Source of the DNA: a virus
Strand: one strand, 5' to 3'
DNA: 26,358 nucleotides
Virus record (IMG/VR): IMGVR_UViG_3300002514_000125
Coordinates: 524-26,881 of that record
The notes under the pieces were generated by a model, which saw only the letters and a program-made list of their open reading frames with translations, did no database searches and was not told where the DNA came from. Below are positions 3,063-26,262 of this stretch, in pieces (positions within the stretch are counted from its first letter, which is position 1; each line of letters begins with the position of its first letter). A program made the position numbers and the translations under genes.

Positions 3063-3857
3063 TTAGACCTCCAAAGTCTTTAGTTCGCCCAACAGGATAT
3101 TCTTACTCAAGTGAGTATTCGGGGGATAAACCTTATCCACATTACACATTCCTGCATAAGAGGTAGTAAGGTAATGCTTCCATGATTCCTCTTGGTAGCG
3201 GTCAGATACCATAGGATACATAGACGATGCCAAAGCACTATTCTCAGAATCAGCACGACCATAGTATCGGTCTTGACGCTTTTCTAGTTTGTAATCATTC
3301 TGCATACCCTCAAGAGATATTTCAATCAAGTTACCCTGTATCTCTCCAAAGTAGCGAACGATGTCTGCAAGTCTGATGAAGTGCAAAGCGTTTTGCTCGT
3401 AAGTATAGTAACCCCCTCCATGTTCACAAGCGTAGGTAATATGCTCTTCTGCTTTGGTATTACCCTTAGTTTCAAGACCCGCAACTGTGGAAAGGTGCAA
3501 CATTCTTTTAAGCAAACCTGTTGTTACCACTAGCCCAACAGAAGTTGGAGTAGAGACATACTTGAGGTCGGGCTTTGAATGTTTGGCAACACTAATGAAA
3601 GAGCCTGTAGGCATCTTCTTTGATTCACCTAGAACGGTATCCCTAACCTCTTGATTGAACTTGGAGATGTTCGCGAAAGCGTCAATATCCTTTTGGGTGA
3701 ACAACACTTCGTTGGACTCAACCATTTTGTGATACATACGGCTTTGGTATGTACTAACGGAGAGTGATGCACACCTAGCCAAGATTTCGGAAGTGTGAAC
3801 AAGGGATTTGAGAAGGGAGAACCCTACTCGTCGGGGAAGTTTATTGGTTTGTTTCAT
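3063..3857 (-). CDS. Hypothetical protein downstream of the sigma-like gene
   Basis: 264 residues, not recognised. The N-terminus is basic (KQTNKLPRRVGFSLLKSL). The middle has a beta-rich segment (LKYVSTPTSVGLVVTTGLLKRML) and a Gly/Tyr patch (ACEHGGGYYTYEQNALHF), followed by a charged segment (DYKLEKRQDRYYGRADSENS). No signal peptide or membrane helix. It overlaps the sigma-like gene by 17 bases and abuts the DUF3310 gene, so it belongs to the same polycistronic run as the AAA+/VWA module. Confidence 0.7.
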   Translation of the reverse strand: MKQTNKLPRRVGFSLLKSLVHTSEILARCASLSVSTYQSRMYHKMVESNEVLFTQKDIDAFANISKFNQEVRDTVLGESKKMPTGSFISVAKHSKPDLKYVSTPTSVGLVVTTGLLKRMLHLSTVAGLETKGNTKAEEHITYACEHGGGYYTYEQNALHFIRLADIVRYFGEIQGNLIEISLEGMQNDYKLEKRQDRYYGRADSENSALASSMYPMVSDRYQEESWKHYLTTSYAGMCNVDKVYPPNTHLSKNILLGELKTLEV

Positions 3858-4428
3858 TGTTGTAATCTCGTAAGTCGTACTTCATCTTCTCGATGGCAAC
3901 ACGCACTTCGTTTTTTGGTTTTTGGGTTATTCGTGAAAGTTTGGAAATGTTAAGAGAGCCATCGGGTTTGATGATTCTCATATCAGATATTACAGCATCG
4001 GCAATAGCCTGTGCGGTAGAATCTAGTTCTGCGTCCTCAAAAGCGGATACGGCGGTGGGTTCTGTTTCAAGCGTACTACTTCCATAGGTTGCACCTGTTT
4101 CAGTAGAGAACATTTCGGGGTTGGAAGAAAGAGATACACAGCGTCTAACTTCGTATTTCTTCTTAATCTTGTTTCCGACATTGTTCTTCTTGTTCCACAA
4201 ACAAGTTTTGATATACTTATCAAAAGGTATTGTGTTAAAGAAGGTATCGAAATCCTCCCCTGTCTTGCGAGAGTAAGCAGATACAGCGTCCATAGCCGTG
4301 ATTGCAAGTTCTTGGTTGCTATCATCAAAGTCGTGTGCAACCTTATCCCCTCCAATCCTATGCGCTACTGCATACATCAAACGCCTATACTTCTTATGGA
4401 TTTTTGCCCATTGTTCGTCGGTAAGCAT
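3841..4428 (-). CDS. Divergent sigma-factor-like protein (gp55-type candidate)
   Basis: 195 residues from the ATG at 4428, which forms a TAATG overlap with the VWA gene. Residues about 35-75 (DDSNQELAITAMDAVSAYSR...TFFNTIPFDKYI) follow the helix pattern of sigma region 2, with QE, an A-x-x-A-x-x-A-Y core and a Y-I element, then the basic stretch NKKNNVGNKIKKKYE. T4 gp55 (185 residues) has the same order: a QE helix, F-DE, YITQA, then IKKERKE. Residues 160-190 (LNISKLSRITQKPKNEVRVAIEKMK) could be a helix-turn-helix. The middle is Ser/Thr/Glu-rich. If correct it would direct RNA polymerase to late promoters. The match is by eye and weak. Confidence 0.5.
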   Translation of the reverse strand: MLTDEQWAKIHKKYRRLMYAVAHRIGGDKVAHDFDDSNQELAITAMDAVSAYSRKTGEDFDTFFNTIPFDKYIKTCLWNKKNNVGNKIKKKYEVRRCVSLSSNPEMFSTETGATYGSSTLETEPTAVSAFEDAELDSTAQAIADAVISDMRIIKPDGSLNISKLSRITQKPKNEVRVAIEKMKYDLRDYNNETNQ

Positions 4429-5336
4429 TATTCTAAGAACCCCGCAAATGTTTTGAACAATGCTCCTGCAAAGTCTGTGTTTGCACAAATCATGTTCTCG
4501 CCATAGATGTCCTTCATACGGTCATCATTCCTTCCCCCTAACATAAGTGTAAGGTTGGGAATCCCCCGAAGGTATTTCATACGCATCGCTTTGGTATCCC
4601 CACTTCGGAACTGATAACTGTCCTTGCCAAGACCGCAGTATGCTTCACCATCAGTTAGGTTGAACACAATGCACTTCTTGGTTTTTACATTCTTCATAAT
4701 CCACTTCTGCAAAGCAGGAAGAACAGCATACTCGCAAGTGTAACTGCCGTCGTAACTACCGTCTTTGTCCACAATGGGAGAGTTGGTATTCAACTTCAGC
4801 ATCTTGTCGTAATCTTTCTTACGAGACTTCGACGAGAATATCCTAGAGAGAACTGCCATATCTCCGTTCTTTGTTCCTGTTAATGTAGAACCATGAACAG
4901 AGGGAGCAGACTTTAGGAACACCTCAATAGGAATCTTCCCTTTCAACACTTGGTCATTTGCTTTTGCGAAAGCAGAAGCAACAGCACTACAAATACCGAT
5001 AAGGGTGCAATCCCCAACAGGAGTCTTTGCGGTGTTATCCATACTGCCCGAACCATCTATAAGGAAAACAATAGTGGTATCTGATGATACCGAACGAATA
5101 GTTTTCTGAAAGATGTTATCGCAGTAAGGAAACTTATGTAACGAACGAGAATCCAAATACCCCTTTTGAGAGGATACTTTGCGAGTTTTCTTTTGCTCAA
5201 GCAACAAGGTGATATGTTGCTTGAACTTTTGGAAAAAGTAGTTTCTCAGTTCCTCTGTACGAGAGTTACGACTATAGTAACTCTCTGCGTACAAAGGCTT
5301 TTCTGAGAAAGCGTAATGGTCTTGGTTTCTTCTCAT
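4428..5336 (-). CDS. CobT-like VWA domain protein
   Basis: 302 residues. A von Willebrand A domain starts at about residue 87 with a complete MIDAS motif, IVFLIDGSGSM (residues 89-99), and the later strand CIVFNLTDGEAY fits the metal-binding loop. The stretch before it (HITLLLEQKKTRKV...GYLDSRSLHKFP) parallels the 'G-LD...L' lead-in of CobT C-terminal domains. In CobS/CobT, NorQ/NorD and CbbQ/CbbO pairs the VWA protein links a MoxR-type ATPase to its target, and that ATPase lies three genes upstream here. It directly follows the unknown 257-residue gene (TAAATG) and overlaps the sigma-like gene. The substrate is unknown. Confidence 0.82.
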   Translation of the reverse strand: MRRNQDHYAFSEKPLYAESYYSRNSRTEELRNYFFQKFKQHITLLLEQKKTRKVSSQKGYLDSRSLHKFPYCDNIFQKTIRSVSSDTTIVFLIDGSGSMDNTAKTPVGDCTLIGICSAVASAFAKANDQVLKGKIPIEVFLKSAPSVHGSTLTGTKNGDMAVLSRIFSSKSRKKDYDKMLKLNTNSPIVDKDGSYDGSYTCEYAVLPALQKWIMKNVKTKKCIVFNLTDGEAYCGLGKDSYQFRSGDTKAMRMKYLRGIPNLTLMLGGRNDDRMKDIYGENMICANTDFAGALFKTFAGFLE

Positions 5337-6110
5337 TTAGCAAATCTCCAAGCATGGAGTGGAAGCGTGGGAAAAAGTAACCTTGTAAGTGAAAGTGCCT
5401 TCATTCACAATCCTTTTTGCACTATCTGAAAGCGTATCTTCGTCTAGGTTCATATCAACAATCTTAGTACGCATTGTGTTTGAACCCGAACCCTTGTATG
5501 CGAACGAGGAAGTAGGAAAGGGTGAACCCTCTTTTAGCATAAGACTAAAAGGCATAGCCACATAACCCTCTCCATCAGCATTACCAATAAGATGGTCATC
5601 AAGGTCTTGTTGAGCAGAAGCCTTCGCAACGCTAACAGCATTAGAGATAGTGAAATCAGAGTTTAGAGCCATACCCTTTTCCATGAGGTAAGCAACTGCA
5701 TTGTTGATTTCTTGAAGTGTATCATCACCACTTGCCTTTGGAGCATTAGAACTACCAATGAAGTTGCAATACTTTTCTTTCGCTTCAGTAATGCGTTGTT
5801 CAACATGGGAAGGGCGAGGATACTGCTTTGCGTGTTGGTCAGTAAGAGTTTCCCCTCCACGAACCATACGGTCAAAATACTTAACTTGCTTGCAATCAGA
5901 CTCGCCTCCAAAAATGGATTTGAGAGAAACACGGCAAGTGTCTATCATATCGCTCATTGCACGAACAGCATCGTGTTGAGCGGATTTGTAAATCTCAAAC
6001 TCAGCCTTGTATTCAGCGATGTCGTTATCGGTGAACGTAGCAAGGGTTTGTTCGGGAAGGTTTTTATCAGCAAGAGGGTGCTTAATATAGTAAAGAGTAG
6101 GTGTAGTCAT
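5337..6110 (-). CDS. Hypothetical protein inside the AAA+/VWA module
   Basis: 257 residues, no known domain recognised. The first half is helical and charged (DIAEYKAEFEIYKSAQHDAVRAMSDMI), followed by SHVEQRITEAKEKYCNFIG. The second half is Ser/Gly-rich with possible strands (EGYVAMPFSLMLKEGSPF, FTYKVTFSHASTPCLEIC). It sits between the HExxH and VWA genes with only a few bases either side, so it may be a fixed partner or the client of the module. No signal peptide or membrane segment. Confidence 0.7.
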   Translation of the reverse strand: MTTPTLYYIKHPLADKNLPEQTLATFTDNDIAEYKAEFEIYKSAQHDAVRAMSDMIDTCRVSLKSIFGGESDCKQVKYFDRMVRGGETLTDQHAKQYPRPSHVEQRITEAKEKYCNFIGSSNAPKASGDDTLQEINNAVAYLMEKGMALNSDFTISNAVSVAKASAQQDLDDHLIGNADGEGYVAMPFSLMLKEGSPFPTSSFAYKGSGSNTMRTKIVDMNLDEDTLSDSAKRIVNEGTFTYKVTFSHASTPCLEIC

Positions 6111-6114
6111 GGTT

Positions 6115-7425
6115 TTAGTTTACAGCGTCGAAGATTACGGTATCGTAAGTTACTTGTGTGTCGGAGAATGATTCGGTCGCTGTGTGAACCTGCACATTCT
6201 TAAAGGATTTGATTTGTTGCACGACTTCGGGAGCCATAGCAACATTTTTATTTTCTTCTTCCAACAGTTCCCTAAGTTCTTGTGCGTTATTAGGACTCTG
6301 TGAGGAGAAGTTTGCATTCTCAACATCAACTGCTTGAACAGGTTGAGCGGTATTAGCACTTGCACTATTCGGTTGAGGTTGGGATACTTTGATATTTTTA
6401 ATATCGTCTTTAGCCTGTTCAGAAGCGTTCTTTTCGGCTTCCTGTTGGGGCTGTTGATGTTTAGGAACAGGCGTGTTTGAGAGTTGCTCTTCTAGGGAAT
6501 CGCCAATACTATGATTGACCTTACCCCCAAAGTAGCCGTTAATATCAAACTCTCCGTCATCATCTTGTTGCAGTTGTGGGTTTGCTTCGGGAGGCATACC
6601 ACAATGTTTAAGATATTCTTCATAAACATGAGTAGCGATTTCCTCTTTGTAAGCAGTAAACAATTCAACAGGATAAGTTAGAGCATCTGCATCAACGATG
6701 GCTTGGGTATCCCCATAAGTGCTTTCGATAAACGGAAACTCGTAAATGCCTTTGTGATGGCACAGAAGCATAAAGCCGATAGCGACCAAATCCCTATCGT
6801 CATCACCGAAAGCCCCCTTCTCGATATTCGCAATGAGTTTTTCCCCACCTTGCTTGTCTATCTTGTCGATATACTTTCTAAGGTTCGGAGGTGTGTTAGA
6901 GTCGATTCTAACATCTTCTACTGCGTTAATCAAAAAGAGCAAATCGCCCAACACTTTACGAAGAAACTTAACCTCTACCCCACATTCGTCATCACCAAGA
7001 ATCTTGTCCATAGTAATAGAAGAATCGGTAAACACTCTTTCAGCAAGAGTCGTGCCATAACAATCTATCTGCTCCATCAAGGTTCTGATAAACTGAAAGG
7101 ACAATGTGTGGTAGTGCTTCTCACTAGGAGTGAGTTTGATGTGATGAAGTTCATGTATCATCGCACCAATAGTTTCATCTACTCGACCTATTTGTAAAAG
7201 ATTAAAAGGGATTACCACTTCCCCTCTTGATACACACGCTCTTGGAGATTCGTTTGCATCAGTAGGGAAAGCGATAGAAACCTTTTTATCGGGAACAATA
7301 ATGTCTCTGTAGTATTCGATAAGCGTCTGCACATCATACATGGTCTTAGCAGACAGACTTTCAATCTGACTGCCATCACCCAACCACCGATTCATGTATT
7401 CGGCATCTATGTTGTGCGTATCCAT
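6115..7425 (-). CDS. Predicted metallopeptidase-like partner of the VWA protein
   Basis: 436 residues. HELHH at residues 91-95 is an HExxH zinc motif, and INAVEDVRID (about 166-175) supplies a possible downstream acidic ligand. This matches the N-terminal metallopeptidase-like half of cellular VWA proteins encoded beside MoxR ATPases (DUF2201_N type). Residues 300-400 are a low-complexity Gln/Ser/Asn/Pro linker (PVPKHQQPQQEAEKN), followed by a short conserved-looking tail. In cellular versions the VWA domain is usually on the same chain; here it is a separate gene. Whether it cleaves protein is unknown. It follows the ATPase gene by two bases. Confidence 0.72.
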   Translation of the reverse strand: MDTHNIDAEYMNRWLGDGSQIESLSAKTMYDVQTLIEYYRDIIVPDKKVSIAFPTDANESPRACVSRGEVVIPFNLLQIGRVDETIGAMIHELHHIKLTPSEKHYHTLSFQFIRTLMEQIDCYGTTLAERVFTDSSITMDKILGDDECGVEVKFLRKVLGDLLFLINAVEDVRIDSNTPPNLRKYIDKIDKQGGEKLIANIEKGAFGDDDRDLVAIGFMLLCHHKGIYEFPFIESTYGDTQAIVDADALTYPVELFTAYKEEIATHVYEEYLKHCGMPPEANPQLQQDDDGEFDINGYFGGKVNHSIGDSLEEQLSNTPVPKHQQPQQEAEKNASEQAKDDIKNIKVSQPQPNSASANTAQPVQAVDVENANFSSQSPNNAQELRELLEEENKNVAMAPEVVQQIKSFKNVQVHTATESFSDTQVTYDTVIFDAVN

Positions 7426-7427
7426 TC

Positions 7428-8237
7428 TTAGTTCTCCTCAAACATACCAAGTGAATCTGCGTATTCACGAATGATGTTAGCATCGTTGATGACGCTACAA
7501 GAATCTTCCTCGTACATCGAAAGAAGGACATTGTTCAAAATGTCTTTCAGCGAGAACTTGTCCATAAGCGGAACGCACTCTAGCACCATACGAGTTGAAA
7601 TCTGCGAAGAGATTTTGCTCTCTTTATACATTTGGTGAGAGTAATCGTAAACCTGTACGAGAGGCTTTGCGCTCTTAGAAATCTCACCATTGTAAAGGTG
7701 AGTGATGTATTTGGAAAGTTCCTTTCCCTTGATGTAATCAAGGTGGAAGGGGATAAAGCGGTCTTTCAATGCACGGTCTAGTGAACGCGCAGAAGAGTAA
7801 TCAAGACCGATGTTTGCGGTAGCCACAAACTTAACAGTAGGGTCTACCATAATGGTTTCGCCCGAACCGCCAAGTTCCTCAACACGAATGTCCCTACGGA
7901 AATCCAACAATGGGAAAATGATGTTGAACGCATCATCGGAAGCCCTAGAAAGTTCATCAAGAATGATGAGCGTATTCGGGGTTTGAATGGCTTTAATAAA
8001 GTCTGAGGTTTGGAATCGGGTTGTGCCGTCCTCCAAAACATGATAGCCGATGAGAGAAGTTCTAGCGTCCTGTGTCGAACCCATGTTGATAACAACGGGG
8101 TTCATGCCAAGTGAGTTTGCTATCTCTAGGCAAAGTGTGGTTTTGCCACACCCTGTTGCTCCTGTGAGTAAACAGTTTTTGCCACTACCGATTAGTGTAG
8201 CGAGCATTTCTTTTTTTGTATCGTCAATAACGAACAT
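7428..8237 (-). CDS. cobS: CobS/MoxR-like AAA+ ATPase
   Basis: 269 residues from the ATG at 8237, which has AGGA about eight bases upstream; an upstream GTG at 8294 lies within the promoter. Walker A GATGCGKT at residues 26-33, Walker B LIILDELSRA at about 90-99, sensor-1 ATAN at about 139-142, and an arginine-finger region LDRALKDRF at about 153-161. The short single-domain form fits the MoxR/CobS/CbbQ/NorQ group, which remodel enzyme complexes together with VWA partners. CobS-like genes are known from T4-like cyanophages, where a cobaltochelatase role has been suggested but not shown. First gene after a strong sigma-70-type promoter. Confidence 0.85.
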   Translation of the reverse strand: MFVIDDTKKEMLATLIGSGKNCLLTGATGCGKTTLCLEIANSLGMNPVVINMGSTQDARTSLIGYHVLEDGTTRFQTSDFIKAIQTPNTLIILDELSRASDDAFNIIFPLLDFRRDIRVEELGGSGETIMVDPTVKFVATANIGLDYSSARSLDRALKDRFIPFHLDYIKGKELSKYITHLYNGEISKSAKPLVQVYDYSHQMYKESKISSQISTRMVLECVPLMDKFSLKDILNNVLLSMYEEDSCSVINDANIIREYADSLGMFEEN

Positions 8238-8294
8238 AGGTAAATCCTGTGGTTTGAGTGAGTTGAGAGTCGGGTATCGCCCCGAACAGCCCAC

Positions 8295-8323
8295 ATTATA
8301 CCACAGACCTACCCCTACGTCAA
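8295..8323 (-). promoter_or_regulatory. Sigma-70-type promoter for the AAA+/VWA run
   Basis: Minus strand: TTGACG (8318-8323), a 17-base spacer, then TATAAT (8295-8300). This is a near-consensus housekeeping promoter and the best one in the window. Transcription would begin at about 8288, giving a leader of roughly 50 bases to the ATG at 8237. It predicts expression of the ATPase/VWA/sigma-like run by unmodified host polymerase. Confidence 0.75.
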
Positions 8324-10135: not shown

Positions 10136-10597
10136 TCATACCATCTGCATATGGTACATAATATTTAAAGAAATTGGGCGGTCATCGTCAGGTCCTAGGA
10201 CGTGATAAACAACCAATGGTTTTCCTACTCCAACACTAATGTCTAGATTCTCTCCAAATGATACCTTGTTAGCTACCGCCCCTAGAGAACCTACAAATAA
10301 ATTATTACCAGCATCGCCATTACTAAGCACAATCATCCCAGGAGCATAAGGGCTACCTGCAAGACCATAAGTAGCACATTGAATCTGGTCAATAACGATG
10401 GTTGAGCCAGATACCGCAGGAACTAGCACCGTGCTAGTATCAGCCGCAGGGGAGGCTTGGTAGTGTGCCGCAGAATCCCCCGCATCTAAGCCTGCCCATG
10501 CCGTTGCTGAGGTACCAATCCACACTTTAGTGTTATCATAATACCCCCCAGCGCCACGCATGACAGGGACGATACGTCGTTCAATGGATAGTGCCAT
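10136..10597 (-). CDS. Putative virion-associated protein, paralogue B
   Basis: 153 residues, rich in Gly, Ala, Ser and Val, with alternating strands and no catalytic motif. The central segment (WAGLDAGDSAAHYQASPAAD...TVLVPAVSG) aligns with its neighbour encoded at 10600-11064, as do GENLDISVG and the last strand. This composition is typical of beta-sandwich fibre, decoration or tail proteins, but no named family was recognised. TATAATA abuts the ATG directly, where it also contains the neighbour's stop codon. Confidence 0.55.
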   Translation of the reverse strand: MALSIERRIVPVMRGAGGYYDNTKVWIGTSATAWAGLDAGDSAAHYQASPAADTSTVLVPAVSGSTIVIDQIQCATYGLAGSPYAPGMIVLSNGDAGNNLFVGSLGAVANKVSFGENLDISVGVGKPLVVYHVLGPDDDRPISLNIMYHMQMV

Positions 10598-10599
10598 TA

Positions 10600-11064
10600 T
10601 TATACGTCTACCATAGTGTACGCAACATTTATAATATTAGCGTCGGATGTCGAGCTACCAACATTACCTGCAACTCTATAATGGATTAAGTCCTTATTCT
10701 CCCCAAGAAGAATCTTAGCGGTTAGTCGGGCTTCCGAGTACTGAGTTCCCGTATACACAAACAAATCATCGTCTGAACCCTCCTCACCAAGCGTACCTGT
10801 ATAATCCAAGTTCCCACCAGTCGTCATAGCAGCCACTTCAAGGACGAGAACCCGTTTACCTTCAACACCAGCAACAACCACCGATGAGGTATTAGCATCA
10901 GGGGAAGCCTGTAAGTGGTTAGCAGTAGCATCTAAGCCTGCAAAAGCGGCTGCTTGATAAGCTACTTCTGTGTACATCGTGGCGAACTGTGAGCCAAGCA
11001 CCTTTTCAGGGGAAATTCCCGCAGGACCTTCCATCATCATCCCATTCATTCTAGTTTGAGCCAT
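10600..11064 (-). CDS. Putative virion-associated protein, paralogue A
   Basis: 154 residues. It shares AFAGLDATANHLQASPDANTS, then a VEGKRVLVLEVAA strand, then LGENKDL and a final INVAYTMVDV strand with paralogue B. The N-terminus is Met-rich (MAQTRMNGMMMEGPAGISPE). Probably beta-rich and structural; no enzymatic motif. It lies at the end of the run after rmlD, with TATATAA six bases before its ATG and no Shine-Dalgarno site. Confidence 0.55.
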   Translation of the reverse strand: MAQTRMNGMMMEGPAGISPEKVLGSQFATMYTEVAYQAAAFAGLDATANHLQASPDANTSSVVVAGVEGKRVLVLEVAAMTTGGNLDYTGTLGEEGSDDDLFVYTGTQYSEARLTAKILLGENKDLIHYRVAGNVGSSTSDANIINVAYTMVDV

Positions 11065-11082: not shown

Positions 11083-11808
11083 TTACTCGTCTAGAACCAT
11101 AGAACAATCTGTAGGGTATTGGTAGGGGGTTTTTAGGTCTATAGGGTCTACCAGCTCCACCCAAGGGTACTCCTCCCGTGCGAGGTCAGCAAGAAGTTTC
11201 CTTTCTGTTCCTAGGTTAATTACCCCTGTTCTCTCATCGGCAACCACTTCTACAATCTTTTCGGCTATAACATCTATCCAGTCTGCATTTGTCCACACGG
11301 GGTCAATAACTTTAGTATAGGCATTTTCTCCCCATGTCCCTCTAGCCTTCATAGATGTCCTAATAATTAAATCTTTTTCGGGGTCGCAAAACCACTCCCC
11401 AATAAACTTAGTCATTCCGTAGGAGCCTAAAGGGGAAACATCGCTAACAGAGTAATTTCCTTCGGTTCCAGGGTAGACGTAATCAGTCGAAATGTAGACA
11501 ACCTTAGCCCCATGGTAGTGAGCCGACTCGCACACGAACTTACTGCCCATGATATTGGTCCTTACGCACTTATCCTTCCCCTCCATTGTTTCAGCTTTAG
11601 GCACATCTGTGTATGCAGCAAGATTGATGACAATGTCGGGGTTATGCCACATGACGCACTGCCATATTTTAGTGGTAGCGATATCCACTTCTTCGGAGGT
11701 CGGGGCTATAACATGAGCGCCAGCTGCTTTAAGAAGGGGGACAAGGTCTTTACCTAGTCTCCCCCCTCCTCCAAATACTAAAATTTGCTTATCTTTCAAT
11801 GTGTTCAC
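11083..11808 (-). CDS. rfbD: dTDP-4-dehydrorhamnose reductase-like (RmlD)
   Basis: 241 residues, an NAD(P)-binding short-chain-type reductase. GGGGRLG (13-19) is the Rossmann loop, STDYVYPG (107-114) is the family strand, and YGMTK (130-134) holds the catalytic Tyr and Lys. INLAAYTDVPKAE also matches RmlD. RmlD reduces dTDP-4-keto-rhamnose to dTDP-L-rhamnose. It is shorter than usual (about 290), with a compact C-terminal substrate domain, so the exact sugar may differ. The start is a GTG at 11808 (TTG at 11799 is possible), overlapping rmlB by 20 bases. Confidence 0.8.
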   Translation of the reverse strand: MNTLKDKQILVFGGGGRLGKDLVPLLKAAGAHVIAPTSEEVDIATTKIWQCVMWHNPDIVINLAAYTDVPKAETMEGKDKCVRTNIMGSKFVCESAHYHGAKVVYISTDYVYPGTEGNYSVSDVSPLGSYGMTKFIGEWFCDPEKDLIIRTSMKARGTWGENAYTKVIDPVWTNADWIDVIAEKIVEVVADERTGVINLGTERKLLADLAREEYPWVELVDPIDLKTPYQYPTDCSMVLDE

Positions 11809-12763
11809 GTAACTGTTCCCTTATAAAGTAACTTAAGGTAGTTAGTTCAGGCCAGTGACCCATATACGATTCTAATTTAGTAGAATTTAAAAGATACTTT
11901 CGGTCATGACCCAAGCGGTCTTCGACGAATTTATACTCTACGTTTTTTCCGAGGATGTCGCTAATCTTTTCAATAATATCAATATTAGTATGAGTTACCC
12001 CACTTCCAATATTATACACTTTCCCTTCGGAAGCACTCATCATTAGATGAAAAATAAACTTCACATTATCATCAACGTGTATCCATTCACGCACTTGTTC
12101 TCCATCTCCATACACAGGAACCTCAGAGCCTTCCGCAATAGACTTCATAATCTTAGGAAGGAACTTCTCAGGGTCCTGATTAGGTCCGAAGTTATTACAG
12201 GTTCTCGTAATAAGGTAAGGAACATCGAACGTTCTGCCCGCAGCCTCCACCAACAGGTCGGCGCTCGCCTTAGAAGCAGCGTAGTAAGAACTACCCTTCA
12301 GCTTAAAGCTCTCGTCGGCACCGAGATGACCTCCCCTAACATCAGCCATGTCTCCATAGACTTCATCGGTTGATATCTGGACAAACTTGATGAGGTTCTC
12401 GTTATGCTTGCAAATCTCTAAGAGGTTGAACACTCCCCGAATATTAGTTTTTACAAAAGGAGAGCCATCCGCTATGGAATTGTCTACGTGAGTCTCAGCC
12501 GCGAAATTAACAACGTACTCTGCCGTCTTCAGGGCGGGACAAATATCAGCTACATCGCTCTGAGCTATATCCCCAATACAATGCTTAACGCGGCCCATGT
12601 GTGCTTTGCTATCCAACCACGACGTTACTCGCGTCTTATCAGCAGCATAAGTGCATTTATCTAAAATTACAACGTTATAGTTTGTATTCTCTACAACGTG
12701 TTTTACGAATCGAGAGCCTATGAAACCATAGCCCCCAGTTACTACAATATGTTTTCTATTCAT
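11789..12763 (-). CDS. rfbB: dTDP-glucose 4,6-dehydratase (RmlB)
   Basis: 324 residues from the ATG at 12763, which overlaps the end of rmlA. Extended short-chain reductase fold: GGYGFIG NAD loop (10-16), AAETHVDNSI, catalytic TDE in STDEVYG (131-137), YAASK (161-165), and RTCNNFGPNQ where typical enzymes have RCSNNYGP. It converts dTDP-glucose to dTDP-4-keto-6-deoxyglucose. The C-terminal GDGEQVREWIHVDDN matches the substrate-binding region. Length is normal for the family. Confidence 0.9.
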   Translation of the reverse strand: MNRKHIVVTGGYGFIGSRFVKHVVENTNYNVVILDKCTYAADKTRVTSWLDSKAHMGRVKHCIGDIAQSDVADICPALKTAEYVVNFAAETHVDNSIADGSPFVKTNIRGVFNLLEICKHNENLIKFVQISTDEVYGDMADVRGGHLGADESFKLKGSSYYAASKASADLLVEAAGRTFDVPYLITRTCNNFGPNQDPEKFLPKIMKSIAEGSEVPVYGDGEQVREWIHVDDNVKFIFHLMMSASEGKVYNIGSGVTHTNIDIIEKISDILGKNVEYKFVEDRLGHDRKYLLNSTKLESYMGHWPELTTLSYFIREQLREHIER

Positions 12764-13472
12764 CTTCAAAGAATGTTTTAGTTGCTAGTGCTAATGAATC
12801 AAAGGTCCCGCAGTCCATCCACGTCCCATGAATCTTATGCACTTGGAGTTGCCCGTCCATTAAGTACGAGCGGTTCAGGTCGGTTACTTCAAGCTCTCCA
12901 CGACCTGACGGTACAAGCTGCTCAATCCTTCTAAACACACTATTATCATACATATACAAGCCAATAATTGCATCATTCGAAGGAGGTATAGAAGGCTTCT
13001 CAACTAGGTCTTTTGCCCACCCTTTCTCATCCCATTCCACAACGCCAAAGCGTTCTGGGTCATCCACTCTTTTAGTGAAAATGCAAGCGCCACCAATAGC
13101 ATCAAACTCCCTAACAGGAACAGAAATATCATCAGCGATAATATTATCGCCAAGGATGACAACACAATTATCGTCTCCGACAAACGGTTTAGCCATGTTG
13201 AGGGCGTGTGCGATACCCCCTTCACCTTCTTGGTATGCATAATTTAATCCCTCTAATCCGAAGTCTTCACCGTTGCGCAGTACTCGGATAAAATCACCTG
13301 CGTGTGGTCCCCCTGTTACGATAAGAATATCCTTAACCCCTGCGTTCACCAATGTTTCAATTGGATGATACACCATAGGCTTATCATACACAGGCAGTAA
13401 ATGTTTGTTAGTTGCTTTAGTTAAAGGGGATAGGCGCGTACCAAGCCCCCCAGCAAGAATAATTCCTTTCAT
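12756..13472 (-). CDS. rfbA: Glucose-1-phosphate thymidylyltransferase (RmlA)
   Basis: 238 residues, a nucleotidyltransferase. The signature GGLGTRLSPLTK begins at residue 8, followed by NKHLLPVYDKPMVYHPIETL, VILGDNII and EKPSIP. It makes dTDP-glucose from glucose-1-phosphate and dTTP, the first step of dTDP-deoxysugar synthesis. It is about 50 residues shorter than classical RmlA, as in the short form of the family. First gene of rmlA-B-D; it has a terminator upstream and TATAATA four bases before its ATG. Confidence 0.9.
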   Translation of the reverse strand: MKGIILAGGLGTRLSPLTKATNKHLLPVYDKPMVYHPIETLVNAGVKDILIVTGGPHAGDFIRVLRNGEDFGLEGLNYAYQEGEGGIAHALNMAKPFVGDDNCVVILGDNIIADDISVPVREFDAIGGACIFTKRVDDPERFGVVEWDEKGWAKDLVEKPSIPPSNDAIIGLYMYDNSVFRRIEQLVPSGRGELEVTDLNRSYLMDGQLQVHKIHGTWMDCGTFDSLALATKTFFEDE

Positions 13473-14194: not shown

Positions 14195-15421
14195 TTAGGA
14201 AATTCCTTCTACAGAAATGAATTTATTATGCTCAAAAACAGGCTTAAACTTTTCAGTCTCTCCACCTTCCAGAATCTTCTCTGCAAGCTTTATAGTAACG
14301 TTGTTTCGAATGAACCTTTTAATGTTCCGAGCGCCATATTCAGGAGAAAAGGAATTTTCCACCACATAGTCTACAAGCTTCTTTGTAGTTTTGATAGGCA
14401 ACTGCTTAAGGTTAATACGTGTGATAGCGGCAGCATCCTGCTCGGTGAGTTGATTGAAATACACCACCCCGTCGAGACGGTTAATGAACTCTGGACTGAA
14501 TTCTTCCTTAAAGGCTTTTTCGATGATTCCTTTACACGACTCGTAGTCCTGAACTTCCTTCCCGAAGCCCACCAAATCTTTACCTACGTTACCTTTAATA
14601 CCTACGTTGCTAGTGAAACAAACGATGGAGTCAGTAAAATCTAGGTCGCTACCGTGACTGTCCATCACCTTCCCATCATCCAGAAACCCCAAAAGCAGAT
14701 TCAATAGCTTGGGGTGAGCCTTTTCAATCTCGTCAAATAAGATAATCCATTCGGAAGACTGCTCTGCTTTTTCAGATAAAATGCCTTTTTCGTTATGCCC
14801 TACGTACCCAGGGGGACTACCAATCAGTTTGGCATACTCATGCCCTGTGGAGTACTCCCCACAATTAATTTTTAATAGTTTTTTTGGGTCTCCCAAATAT
14901 TCTTGGGCTAACAATCTAGCTAGTTCTGTCTTACCTACGCCTGTAGGTCCGATAAAAAACAAGGATACGAACTCACCGAGCCCAGAGCTAAGCAGTTTGA
15001 TGGATTTCATGCACTCATCAACAGCTTCAGGTTGCCCGATAAGCTTACCTTTGATTCGTGCGGTTAATTTTTCGATTTGAGTGAGGGTGAGAAGGCTCTC
15101 TTTCTTAGGGGCATCGTCTAACTCGCTAATCTCGTTAAGAGTTTTGCAGACGAAGTCTATCTGAAAGATAGGGTAAACCTCTATAACACACTCAAAGAGG
15201 GATTCCAGTTGCTCATCTATATTGAAGCGAGCGAAATCCTCTACAGTCTTAGCGATAACGCTTCGGATGTAGGCTCCGATTTTAATCCCAGGCTTATTAA
15301 TGAGAGTTCCAATCTTTACTACGATTTCTCCTAGCTCTGTATCAGAAAACTTTTTAATACGTACAAACTCATCTATGTGAGGATTGTACACAACATAACT
15401 ATCTTGTTCTTTTTTAGGCAT
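14195..15421 (-). CDS. Clp-type AAA+ unfoldase (single D2-like domain)
   Basis: 408 residues from the ATG at 15421; the upstream open frame lies inside the preceding gene. The first 120 or so residues are unlike ClpA/B/C N-domains. Then comes one D2-type AAA+ domain: GPTGVGKT (158-165), pore loop GSPPGYVG (201-208), Walker B IILFDEIEKAHP (226-237), sensor-1 FTSNVG (269-274), arginine finger EFINRLD (311-317) and sensor-2 GARNIKRFI. VGF at 284-286 lies where ClpA/ClpC/ClpX carry the tripeptide that docks on ClpP; ClpB lacks it. It may therefore deliver proteins to host ClpP. No ClpP gene is present here. Confidence 0.85.
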   Translation of the reverse strand: MPKKEQDSYVVYNPHIDEFVRIKKFSDTELGEIVVKIGTLINKPGIKIGAYIRSVIAKTVEDFARFNIDEQLESLFECVIEVYPIFQIDFVCKTLNEISELDDAPKKESLLTLTQIEKLTARIKGKLIGQPEAVDECMKSIKLLSSGLGEFVSLFFIGPTGVGKTELARLLAQEYLGDPKKLLKINCGEYSTGHEYAKLIGSPPGYVGHNEKGILSEKAEQSSEWIILFDEIEKAHPKLLNLLLGFLDDGKVMDSHGSDLDFTDSIVCFTSNVGIKGNVGKDLVGFGKEVQDYESCKGIIEKAFKEEFSPEFINRLDGVVYFNQLTEQDAAAITRINLKQLPIKTTKKLVDYVVENSFSPEYGARNIKRFIRNNVTIKLAEKILEGGETEKFKPVFEHNKFISVEGIS

Positions 15422-15755
15422 TCTTGCGAGACTTTTTAAGGTCTTCAAAGGACAGACTTTCAACGGGAGCGGACTTCTCTGATTCAATCTTTTGTTCAGA
15501 TTGAGTCATCTTAATCATCATATCGAGAATCTTTACAATTTTATCGTTAGCGTCTTGGGACAGCCCCAAGGCATGAATCATTTCCGCCTTAGCCTTGTCA
15601 TCGTCAGGGCTAGAATCGACGAGTTTTTTAAAATATGTAAATGTCTCTAAGGCTCTATCCCTATCCTCTCCGCAATCCCGAAGAACATCCTTCGCAATCT
15701 TATGGATTCTATTAGGTTCAAAGAACCGTCCTTTAGGAATGTATGTGCGAGCCAT
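15414..15755 (-). CDS. Hypothetical helical protein upstream of the Clp-like gene
   Basis: 113 residues, mainly helical and charged: FEPNRIHKIAKDVLRDCGEDRDRALETF, then DDDKAKAEMIHALGLSQDAND, then a Ser/Glu/Lys-rich tail. Not recognised. It starts in a TAATG overlap and its end overlaps the Clp-like start by eight bases, so the two are probably translated together; it might be an adaptor for that unfoldase. No membrane or signal segment. Confidence 0.6.
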   Translation of the reverse strand: MARTYIPKGRFFEPNRIHKIAKDVLRDCGEDRDRALETFTYFKKLVDSSPDDDKAKAEMIHALGLSQDANDKIVKILDMMIKMTQSEQKIESEKSAPVESLSFEDLKKSRKNA

Positions 15756-25473: not shown

Positions 25474-25925
25474 TAACTAGTGTAATTATCACCAATTAGT
25501 TTGGATTCTGCTCGCTTATTTGCAGATATCTGGACCAACATATCTTTCTGGTGGTCGAGGGAGTTTAGTATGTTTTTAGCCAAGTAGTACTTGTGTGAAG
25601 CTTCCTGATGGGTAAGCTCTGCCTGTGCTACAGAAGGGTCGGTAACAACGTAAGAGTCCAAAGCTCTATCAGTTGCCTTCTTACCTTCGTCAAGTAATTC
25701 TTGACGGCGTGCCTCTTTAACCTTAGCCTCCGTACGGTCACGTTCAAAACCGAAGTTTTCCATTTCACGTTTAGCGTAGGCAAGAACAGCACCAAAAAAA
25801 GCATACACTCCAGTATGCGTAAGAAGTGCATTCTCTACGTTATGCTCATTGATGTTAAGATACTTTTTAGTTATCTCTAAATACGAGTCTTCTAGACTGT
25901 GGTAGGTTGTTTGGATATCATTCAT
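25473..25925 (-). CDS. Possible UvsY-like recombination mediator
   Basis: 150 residues from the ATG at 25925 (the first in-frame codon upstream is TTG). All helical: LTHTGVYAFFGAVLAYAKRE, then RTEAKVKEARRQELL, a polar hinge, then LTHQEASHKYYLAKNILNSL and DHQKDMLVQISANKRAE. The order of helices and length (T4 UvsY has 137 residues) recall UvsY, which loads UvsX onto gp32-coated DNA, and gp32 is adjacent. Identity is low by eye, so this is a position- and shape-based suggestion. Confidence 0.42.
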   Translation of the reverse strand: MNDIQTTYHSLEDSYLEITKKYLNINEHNVENALLTHTGVYAFFGAVLAYAKREMENFGFERDRTEAKVKEARRQELLDEGKKATDRALDSYVVTDPSVAQAELTHQEASHKYYLAKNILNSLDHQKDMLVQISANKRAESKLIGDNYTS

Positions 25926-26262
25926 TTGGACTAAAAATATATTCAAATAGTTCAGGGTTTAAGCCTGCTAATTGCTGTATCATATTAGATGTTACAGTAG
26001 TTAAGAATTCGTTACCCATTTGAGGCATCTCATCGTCATCACCCAACCCATACAAATCAAAGGCGATATGGCAAATCTCATGAAGGAGAGTTCCTTTGTA
26101 ATCTTCAATGCATTGATTGGGGTCAATCGAGAGAAGGCATTTGGGGAACTCCACGCAACCATAAAGATTATCTTTCGCAAGCGTTTGTTGTTTAATGGTA
26201 AATGTTTTTATACCAGTATAAACAACCATGGGGTGTACAGGTTTGGGGAATTTAGGAGTCAT
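25918..26262 (-). CDS. SprT-like zinc peptidase domain protein
   Basis: 114 residues. TLLHEICHIAFDLYGLGDDDE carries HEICH (61-65), an HExxH zinc site, and the following NEFLTTVTSNMIQQLAGLNPEL resembles the third helix of small phage metallopeptidases related to SprT or ImmA. Such genes are common beside phage replication genes, usually with unknown targets. Overlaps both neighbours by about ten bases. Confidence 0.75.
   Translation of the reverse strand: MTPKFPKPVHPMVVYTGIKTFTIKQQTLAKDNLYGCVEFPKCLLSIDPNQCIEDYKGTLLHEICHIAFDLYGLGDDDEMPQMGNEFLTTVTSNMIQQLAGLNPELFEYIFSPNE

Follow-up and report, generated by a model that had tools for sequence, protein, structure and literature searches.

The window, by which we mean the whole stretch of 26,358 nucleotides that was analysed, comes from a viral contig of 32.9 kb. 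On its minus strand, from 8237 to 4428, four genes lie head to tail and encode an ATPase, a protein with an HExxH motif, a 257-residue protein here called U257, and a VWA protein (Table 1). The gaps between them are 2 nt (ATPase/HExxH), 4 nt (HExxH/U257) and 0 nt (U257/VWA), and the VWA stop codon shares the sequence TAATG with the ATG of a sigma-factor gene (4428-3841). A preliminary description of this DNA had listed these four open reading frames as a tight run, and all of them are present. The gene overlapping the sigma-factor gene is probably co-transcribed with it; no homologue of its product was found in the related contigs L005-L008.

Table 1. Features of the operon and its flanks, with positions in the window; L003-L008 are related viral contigs and A6 is a profile of fused homologues (see text).
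Feature	Position	Strand	Remarks
Candidate sigma-70 type promoter	8295..8323	-	TTGACG-17-TATAAT, TG before -10; 86 nt upstream of ATPase start
MoxR/CobS-like AAA+ ATPase, 269 aa	7428..8237	-	AAA_5, phrog_249
HExxH protein, 436 aa	6115..7425	-	HELHH...NAVED; hhalign to fused profile A6
U257, 257 aa, no family	5337..6110	-	homologues only in L003-L008
VWA protein, 302 aa, full MIDAS	4428..5336	-	phrog_459; hhalign to fused profile A6
Sigma-70 region-2 protein, same operon	3841..4428	-	Sigma70_r2 1.4e-5
Uncharacterised protein overlapping sigma gene	3063..3857	-	47% identical homologue in L003/L004, same position

The AAA+ core of the ATPase is complete, with Walker A (GATGCGKT), Walker B (LDE), sensor 1 (TAN), Arg finger and sensor 2, and the sequences DRALKDRF and STR are among its motifs. 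It matches AAA_5 (2.6e-16) and phrog_249 (3e-26), and the nearest solved chains to its sequence are Midasin, CbbQ and NorQ, joined by CobS when a profile is used as query. These lines of evidence agree on the CobS/MoxR-like identity proposed earlier, and, as in the MoxR class, a VWA partner gene is found in the same operon. The ATG at 8237 is taken as the correct start: the longer GTG alternative at 8294 precedes the point where transcription probably begins, and in the relative L005 the matching ATG comes after an obvious ribosome site, aaaggaggtaaaATG.

The order ATPase, HExxH, U257, VWA, sigma is shared by six other contigs, L003-L008, so the four-gene order, on whose conservation the preliminary description had made its interpretation depend, does recur in relatives. 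The six form two lineages, in which the HExxH protein is 73% and 36% identical to that of the window; the ATPase is 93% identical in L003 and 63% in L005. When VWA and U257 alignments were run against 2.9 million viral contigs, only the same contigs were returned, and a scan with the single VWA sequence was empty before the alignment query found the relatives. The named phages searched had no DNA-level relative of the operon, and no relative of the VWA, HExxH or U257 proteins when these were used singly. The operon genes are under purifying selection, the dN/dS values between the window and L003 being 0.07 for the ATPase, 0.20 for HExxH, 0.22 for U257, and 0.13 for both VWA and sigma. HExxH, NxxED and MIDAS are all retained in the window and its relatives. 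The locus is not a chance product, since the gene order recurs and dN/dS is low in all five genes. The L003 contig (record G001; G002 and G003 are the records of L004 and L005) has a gene for a major capsid protein of the T4 Gp23 type, and the group with the split operon is therefore T4-like. Defence-system profiles gave nothing on the locus beyond generic ATPase matches.

The HExxH protein consists of a zincin-like domain, with the motifs HELHH (residues 91-95) and NAVED (167-171), followed by a linker rich in Q, N, D and E and a conserved C-terminal tail. In the VWA protein (phrog_459, 2.8e-9) all MIDAS residues are in place (D94-S96-S98, T200, D229), as the preliminary description had it, and roughly 50 conserved residues inserted at about 143-195 may, by analogy, be a 'finger'. 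Scanning with the ATPase alignment turned up 80 viral loci, and these together with the named phages yielded 45 proteins of about 600-760 aa with an N-terminal HExxH and, by a simple pattern, MIDAS in most. Profile A6 was made from 33 of the 45, chosen on the HExxH pattern, so that this choice in part accounts for the invariance of HExxH in it; without such selection, 46/52 of the ATPase-associated fused proteins have the motif. NxxED, which played no part in the selection, is also invariant in A6. With hhalign, residues 9-282 of the HExxH protein align to 26-275 of the profile (94.5%; hmmsearch 1.4e-6) and residues 42-282 of the VWA protein to 455-672 (96.8%). One protein covers the N half and the other the C half, and they are therefore the halves of what is normally one fused metallopeptidase-VWA protein, which bears out the earlier suggestion. 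The split is placed by these alignments inside the low-complexity linker of the fused protein. No further internal splits of the partner were seen among the sampled loci.

The phage metallopeptidase-VWA partner ('CobT-like', phrog_459) is a single chain; here it is encoded by two genes with U257 between them, and the locus is therefore filed as a split variant and not as a plain phrog_459-type member. The protein that heads the profile aligning to both halves comes from the uncultured jumbo phage LR756508 (L013). Among 85,000 cellular genomes a relative of the fused protein occurs in only six contigs, which look like phage contigs in metagenome bins. Two expectations of the preliminary description did not hold: the two-gene cluster is reported as widespread (PMC8651126; PMC7824862), and with 45 fused partners found here phage CobS genes are not usually alone, and the DUF2201_N profile (PF13203) has no match in the record of the window.

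A profile search of the N domain of the HExxH protein against solved structures gave weak, chance-like matches only. Its structure model, from a shallow alignment, had a pLDDT of 45, and the empty Foldseek result on that model was disregarded. HExxH has been lost from cellular CobT and from a homologue on an Acinetobacter phage-plasmid, which shows that some relatives can do without the zinc site. Because the motif is kept in most of the fused proteins but lost in others, a functional zinc site is likely in the HExxH protein, not proven, and its protease activity would be a prediction from the motif only.

U257 has no significant family in Pfam, PHROG or NCBIfam, in keeping with the extra unknown protein first reported in this run, and it was found in L003-L008 alone, always in the same position and down to 30% identity. 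It aligns nowhere to the profile of the 33 fused proteins and was rejected as a part of the fused protein. A relationship to DUF3150 was also rejected (hhalign 0.3%, with a shallow alignment that could miss distant kinship), as was a structure model from the shallow alignment (pLDDT 43). The position of U257 resembles that of DUF3150 in the module of MOBH plasmids described below. It could be a bystander.

The candidate promoter in front of the ATPase scores 11/12 in the window, the best in 10 kb, and is found 86-88 nt upstream of the ATPase start in all three lineages, represented by the window, L003 and L005. Its sequence is TTGACG-17-TATAAT, TTGACA-16-TAAAAT and TTGACA-17-TATAAT, respectively, and 2, 6 and 2 of 3000 dinucleotide shuffles reached the observed score. 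In T4-like phages, promoters of the sigma-70 type serve early genes. With a host-type promoter heading the operon and the phage's own sigma-factor gene following that for VWA, the arrangement suggests early expression, and with such timing and such a promoter the target would be a host complex or a non-virion complex of the phage, not capsid or tail. The T4-type late motif TATAAATA is absent, which is uninformative as only 1.6 occurrences are expected.

Earlier papers already describe the pair of ATPase and partner, under the name of phage 'cobST' and as MoxR with metallopeptidase-vWA in jumbo phages; what is new is that U257 separates the halves, that the operon is conserved together with a sigma factor, and that a near-consensus sigma-70 promoter is present in all three lineages. 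Viral cobST (PMC8651126) has, as here, an ATPase with a CobT-type VWA partner, and a split CobT is on record in halovirus HHTV-2 (PMC8651126). When read directly, HHTV-2 has gp2 (HEVQH...NVLED) and gp3 (VWA) on separate genes as in the window, but these halves are adjacent with no gene between them and the ATPase is about 3 kb away, whereas the window has ATPase, both halves and U257 in one tight operon with a sigma factor. The MoxR and metallopeptidase-vWA pair of group 2.2 jumbo phages (PMC7824862) has an identical domain set; its partner is fused, while that of the window is split and U257 is additional. A module of AAA, DUF3150 and HExxH/VWA genes (L109-L114, mostly MOBH plasmids) lies in recombination regions, in several cases with bet, exonuclease, radC or ssb genes alongside. 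Its partner is homologous to the fused phage form over the whole length (99.8%), and with DUF3150 between ATPase and partner the three-gene module has, like the window operon, an additional protein, but the partner is unsplit and DUF3150 has no sequence match to U257. The fused phage homologues lie near polymerase, RecA-like, RNR and nuclease genes, and these neighbours, together with those of the MOBH modules, speak for a nucleic-acid or nucleotide setting and not for capsids.

NorQ/NorD, CbbQ/CbbO and Midasin, to whose ATPases that of the window is closest by sequence, have cellular enzymes or ribosome precursors as targets, and to our knowledge none of them has a metallopeptidase domain. 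NorD consists of an N domain, a disordered linker and a VWA domain with a finger (PMC9976466). NorQ is a hexamer, the pore of which is plugged by the NorD VWA domain and finger, and the MIDAS binds the target (PMC9976466). As to cellular CobS/CobT, the ATPase profile matches CobS and the profile of the fused protein is best on CobT (9uka), then on NorD, in both cases via the VWA part. Cellular CobT differs in having no HExxH, and the N half in the window is not PF06213.

The reading we favour, with about an even chance of being right, is a MoxR-VWA remodelling machine of the phage whose partner protein, usually fused, is split in two with a third, new protein between the halves; such a machine is most likely an early device for protein remodelling or proteolysis. 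By analogy, NorQD may serve as the mechanical template. The ATPase would form a hexamer, the pore of which would be plugged by the VWA protein with its conserved insert, and the MIDAS metal would grip an acidic residue of the target, which ATP hydrolysis then would pull. The HExxH protein may dock beside the VWA protein, presumably via its conserved C-terminal tail, and clip the target or handle the target's metal, and U257 would either replace the covalent linker or recruit the target. The target might be a host or phage complex in replication, transcription or nucleotide metabolism. Since the parts of the fused protein are separated here, the roles of metallopeptidase, VWA and linker can be tested singly. 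Phage 'CobS' is often counted as a gene of B12 metabolism; the promoter and the zinc motif give concrete reasons to doubt a simple cobalamin label as well as a virion-assembly label.

A cobalamin booster, in which the ATPase is CobS and the VWA and HExxH proteins are a split CobT that borrow the host CobN and raise B12 for a B12-dependent ribonucleotide reductase of the phage, has been proposed for viral cobST (PMC8651126), and we regard it as an unlikely explanation of the present operon. The best match of the VWA profile among solved structures is CobT. The proposal is given some weight by NrdJ, the AdoCbl-dependent RNR (TIGR02504): it is over the cut-off in only 3/50 ATPase-bearing records (G001, G003 and the jumbo phage L013), G002 carries it too, and no class I RNR small subunit was seen in the NrdJ-bearing records; an AdoCbl-RNR gene also lies beside the plasmid form, next to DUF3150, in Polaromonas (plasmid 2, L112). 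Seven ATPase-bearing records have class I RNR instead, however, the counts are small, and the link to RNR may reflect only the shared ancestry of T4-like phages. Outside the split lineage, an AdoCbl-dependent RNR was found in one of the 48 other ATPase-bearing records. CobN was not found in the four viral records tested, all of them fragments. Furthermore, the N half has retained a zinc motif absent from cellular CobT and does not match the N-terminal CobT family PF06213, which has no match in the window record nor in the 33 fused relatives. CobT_C (PF11775) gives a mixed picture, with matches in 11/33 fused relatives but none in the window VWA protein. By these profiles the partner appears CobT-like only in its VWA part. 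A genuine CobT, that of Shinella (90% identity to 9uka CobT over the part searched), has no HExxH but keeps VEQARVEA, which looks like a relic of NxxEDxRID, an equivalence drawn by eye. A cobalamin role retains some plausibility, since a gene for B12-dependent ribonucleotide reductase is present in two sister phages.

It is also conceivable, albeit improbable, that the split and U257 are incidental, so that the halves rejoin into a normal CobT-like protein with U257 as a passenger, which would be compatible with any function. The independent split in HHTV-2, with nothing between the halves, implies that splitting alone is tolerated; against a passenger stands the constancy of U257, which keeps its place at such low identity and with dN/dS well below one.

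The preliminary description had offered a virion-assembly chaperone, which with a processing peptidase, as in group 2.2 jumbo phages, would be analogous to the MoxR-vWA pair of Acidianus two-tailed virus. Virion assembly has been put forward for the same fused architecture (PMC7824862), and proteolysis in head maturation is plausible because G001 has the T4-like capsid gene. The assembly role fits poorly, if indirectly, with the host-type promoter before the operon in three lineages; besides, the recognised neighbours of the operon in the window are the sigma factor and a DUF3310 protein, with no head or tail gene among them, and fused homologues lie near replication and nucleotide genes. We find this role rather doubtful. 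A bolder form of the remodelling machine would be a four-component early protease-remodelling machine, with U257 as a substrate adaptor that bridges the free metallopeptidase and the free VWA subunit, and which dismantles a host complex or activates the phage's B12-dependent ribonucleotide reductase; this is a speculative version to which we give little credence.

A transcription switch, in which host RNA polymerase or an anti-sigma factor is remodelled or clipped by the machine so that the co-encoded sigma factor takes over, is highly improbable. In its favour, the sigma gene touches or overlaps the stop codon of VWA in each of the three lineages and is kept beside VWA in L003-L008, CobT-like, MoxR and sigma genes stand in a row in an unrelated phage-plasmid of Acinetobacter, and Listeria phage P70 carries, five genes upstream of its MoxR, a gene annotated as sigma. 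Against it, among 50 ATPase-bearing records Sigma70_r2 lies beside the ATPase in G001 only, the neighbouring sigma of L005 being below detection there. As G001 is a close relative of the window, a sigma neighbourhood was rejected as a general rule. The Acinetobacter row (NZ_CP033864.1, phage-plasmid-like, L125, 1849-5850) is located upstream of dnaE, and its HExxH is degenerate (DQEVAKY).

Elsewhere in the window, the minus strand encodes a ClpA/ClpB-type AAA+ D2 protein (14195-15487; phrog_4871, 5e-77), with an 81% identical copy in L003; no ClpP gene was recognised alongside it in the window. A second HExxH protein, small and with the motif HEICH, is encoded at 25918-26262 (-), and is weakly SprT-like (0.041; phrog_1233, 1.3e-5). 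From the translations, three adjacent genes at 11083-13472 (-) are putative dTDP-sugar genes of rmlD/rmlB/rmlA type, and several putative glycosyltransferase-like open reading frames extend up to 24596. Two adjacent look-alike genes of about 153 aa are located at 10136-11064 (-), and the L003 contig has two tandem homologues of the second.
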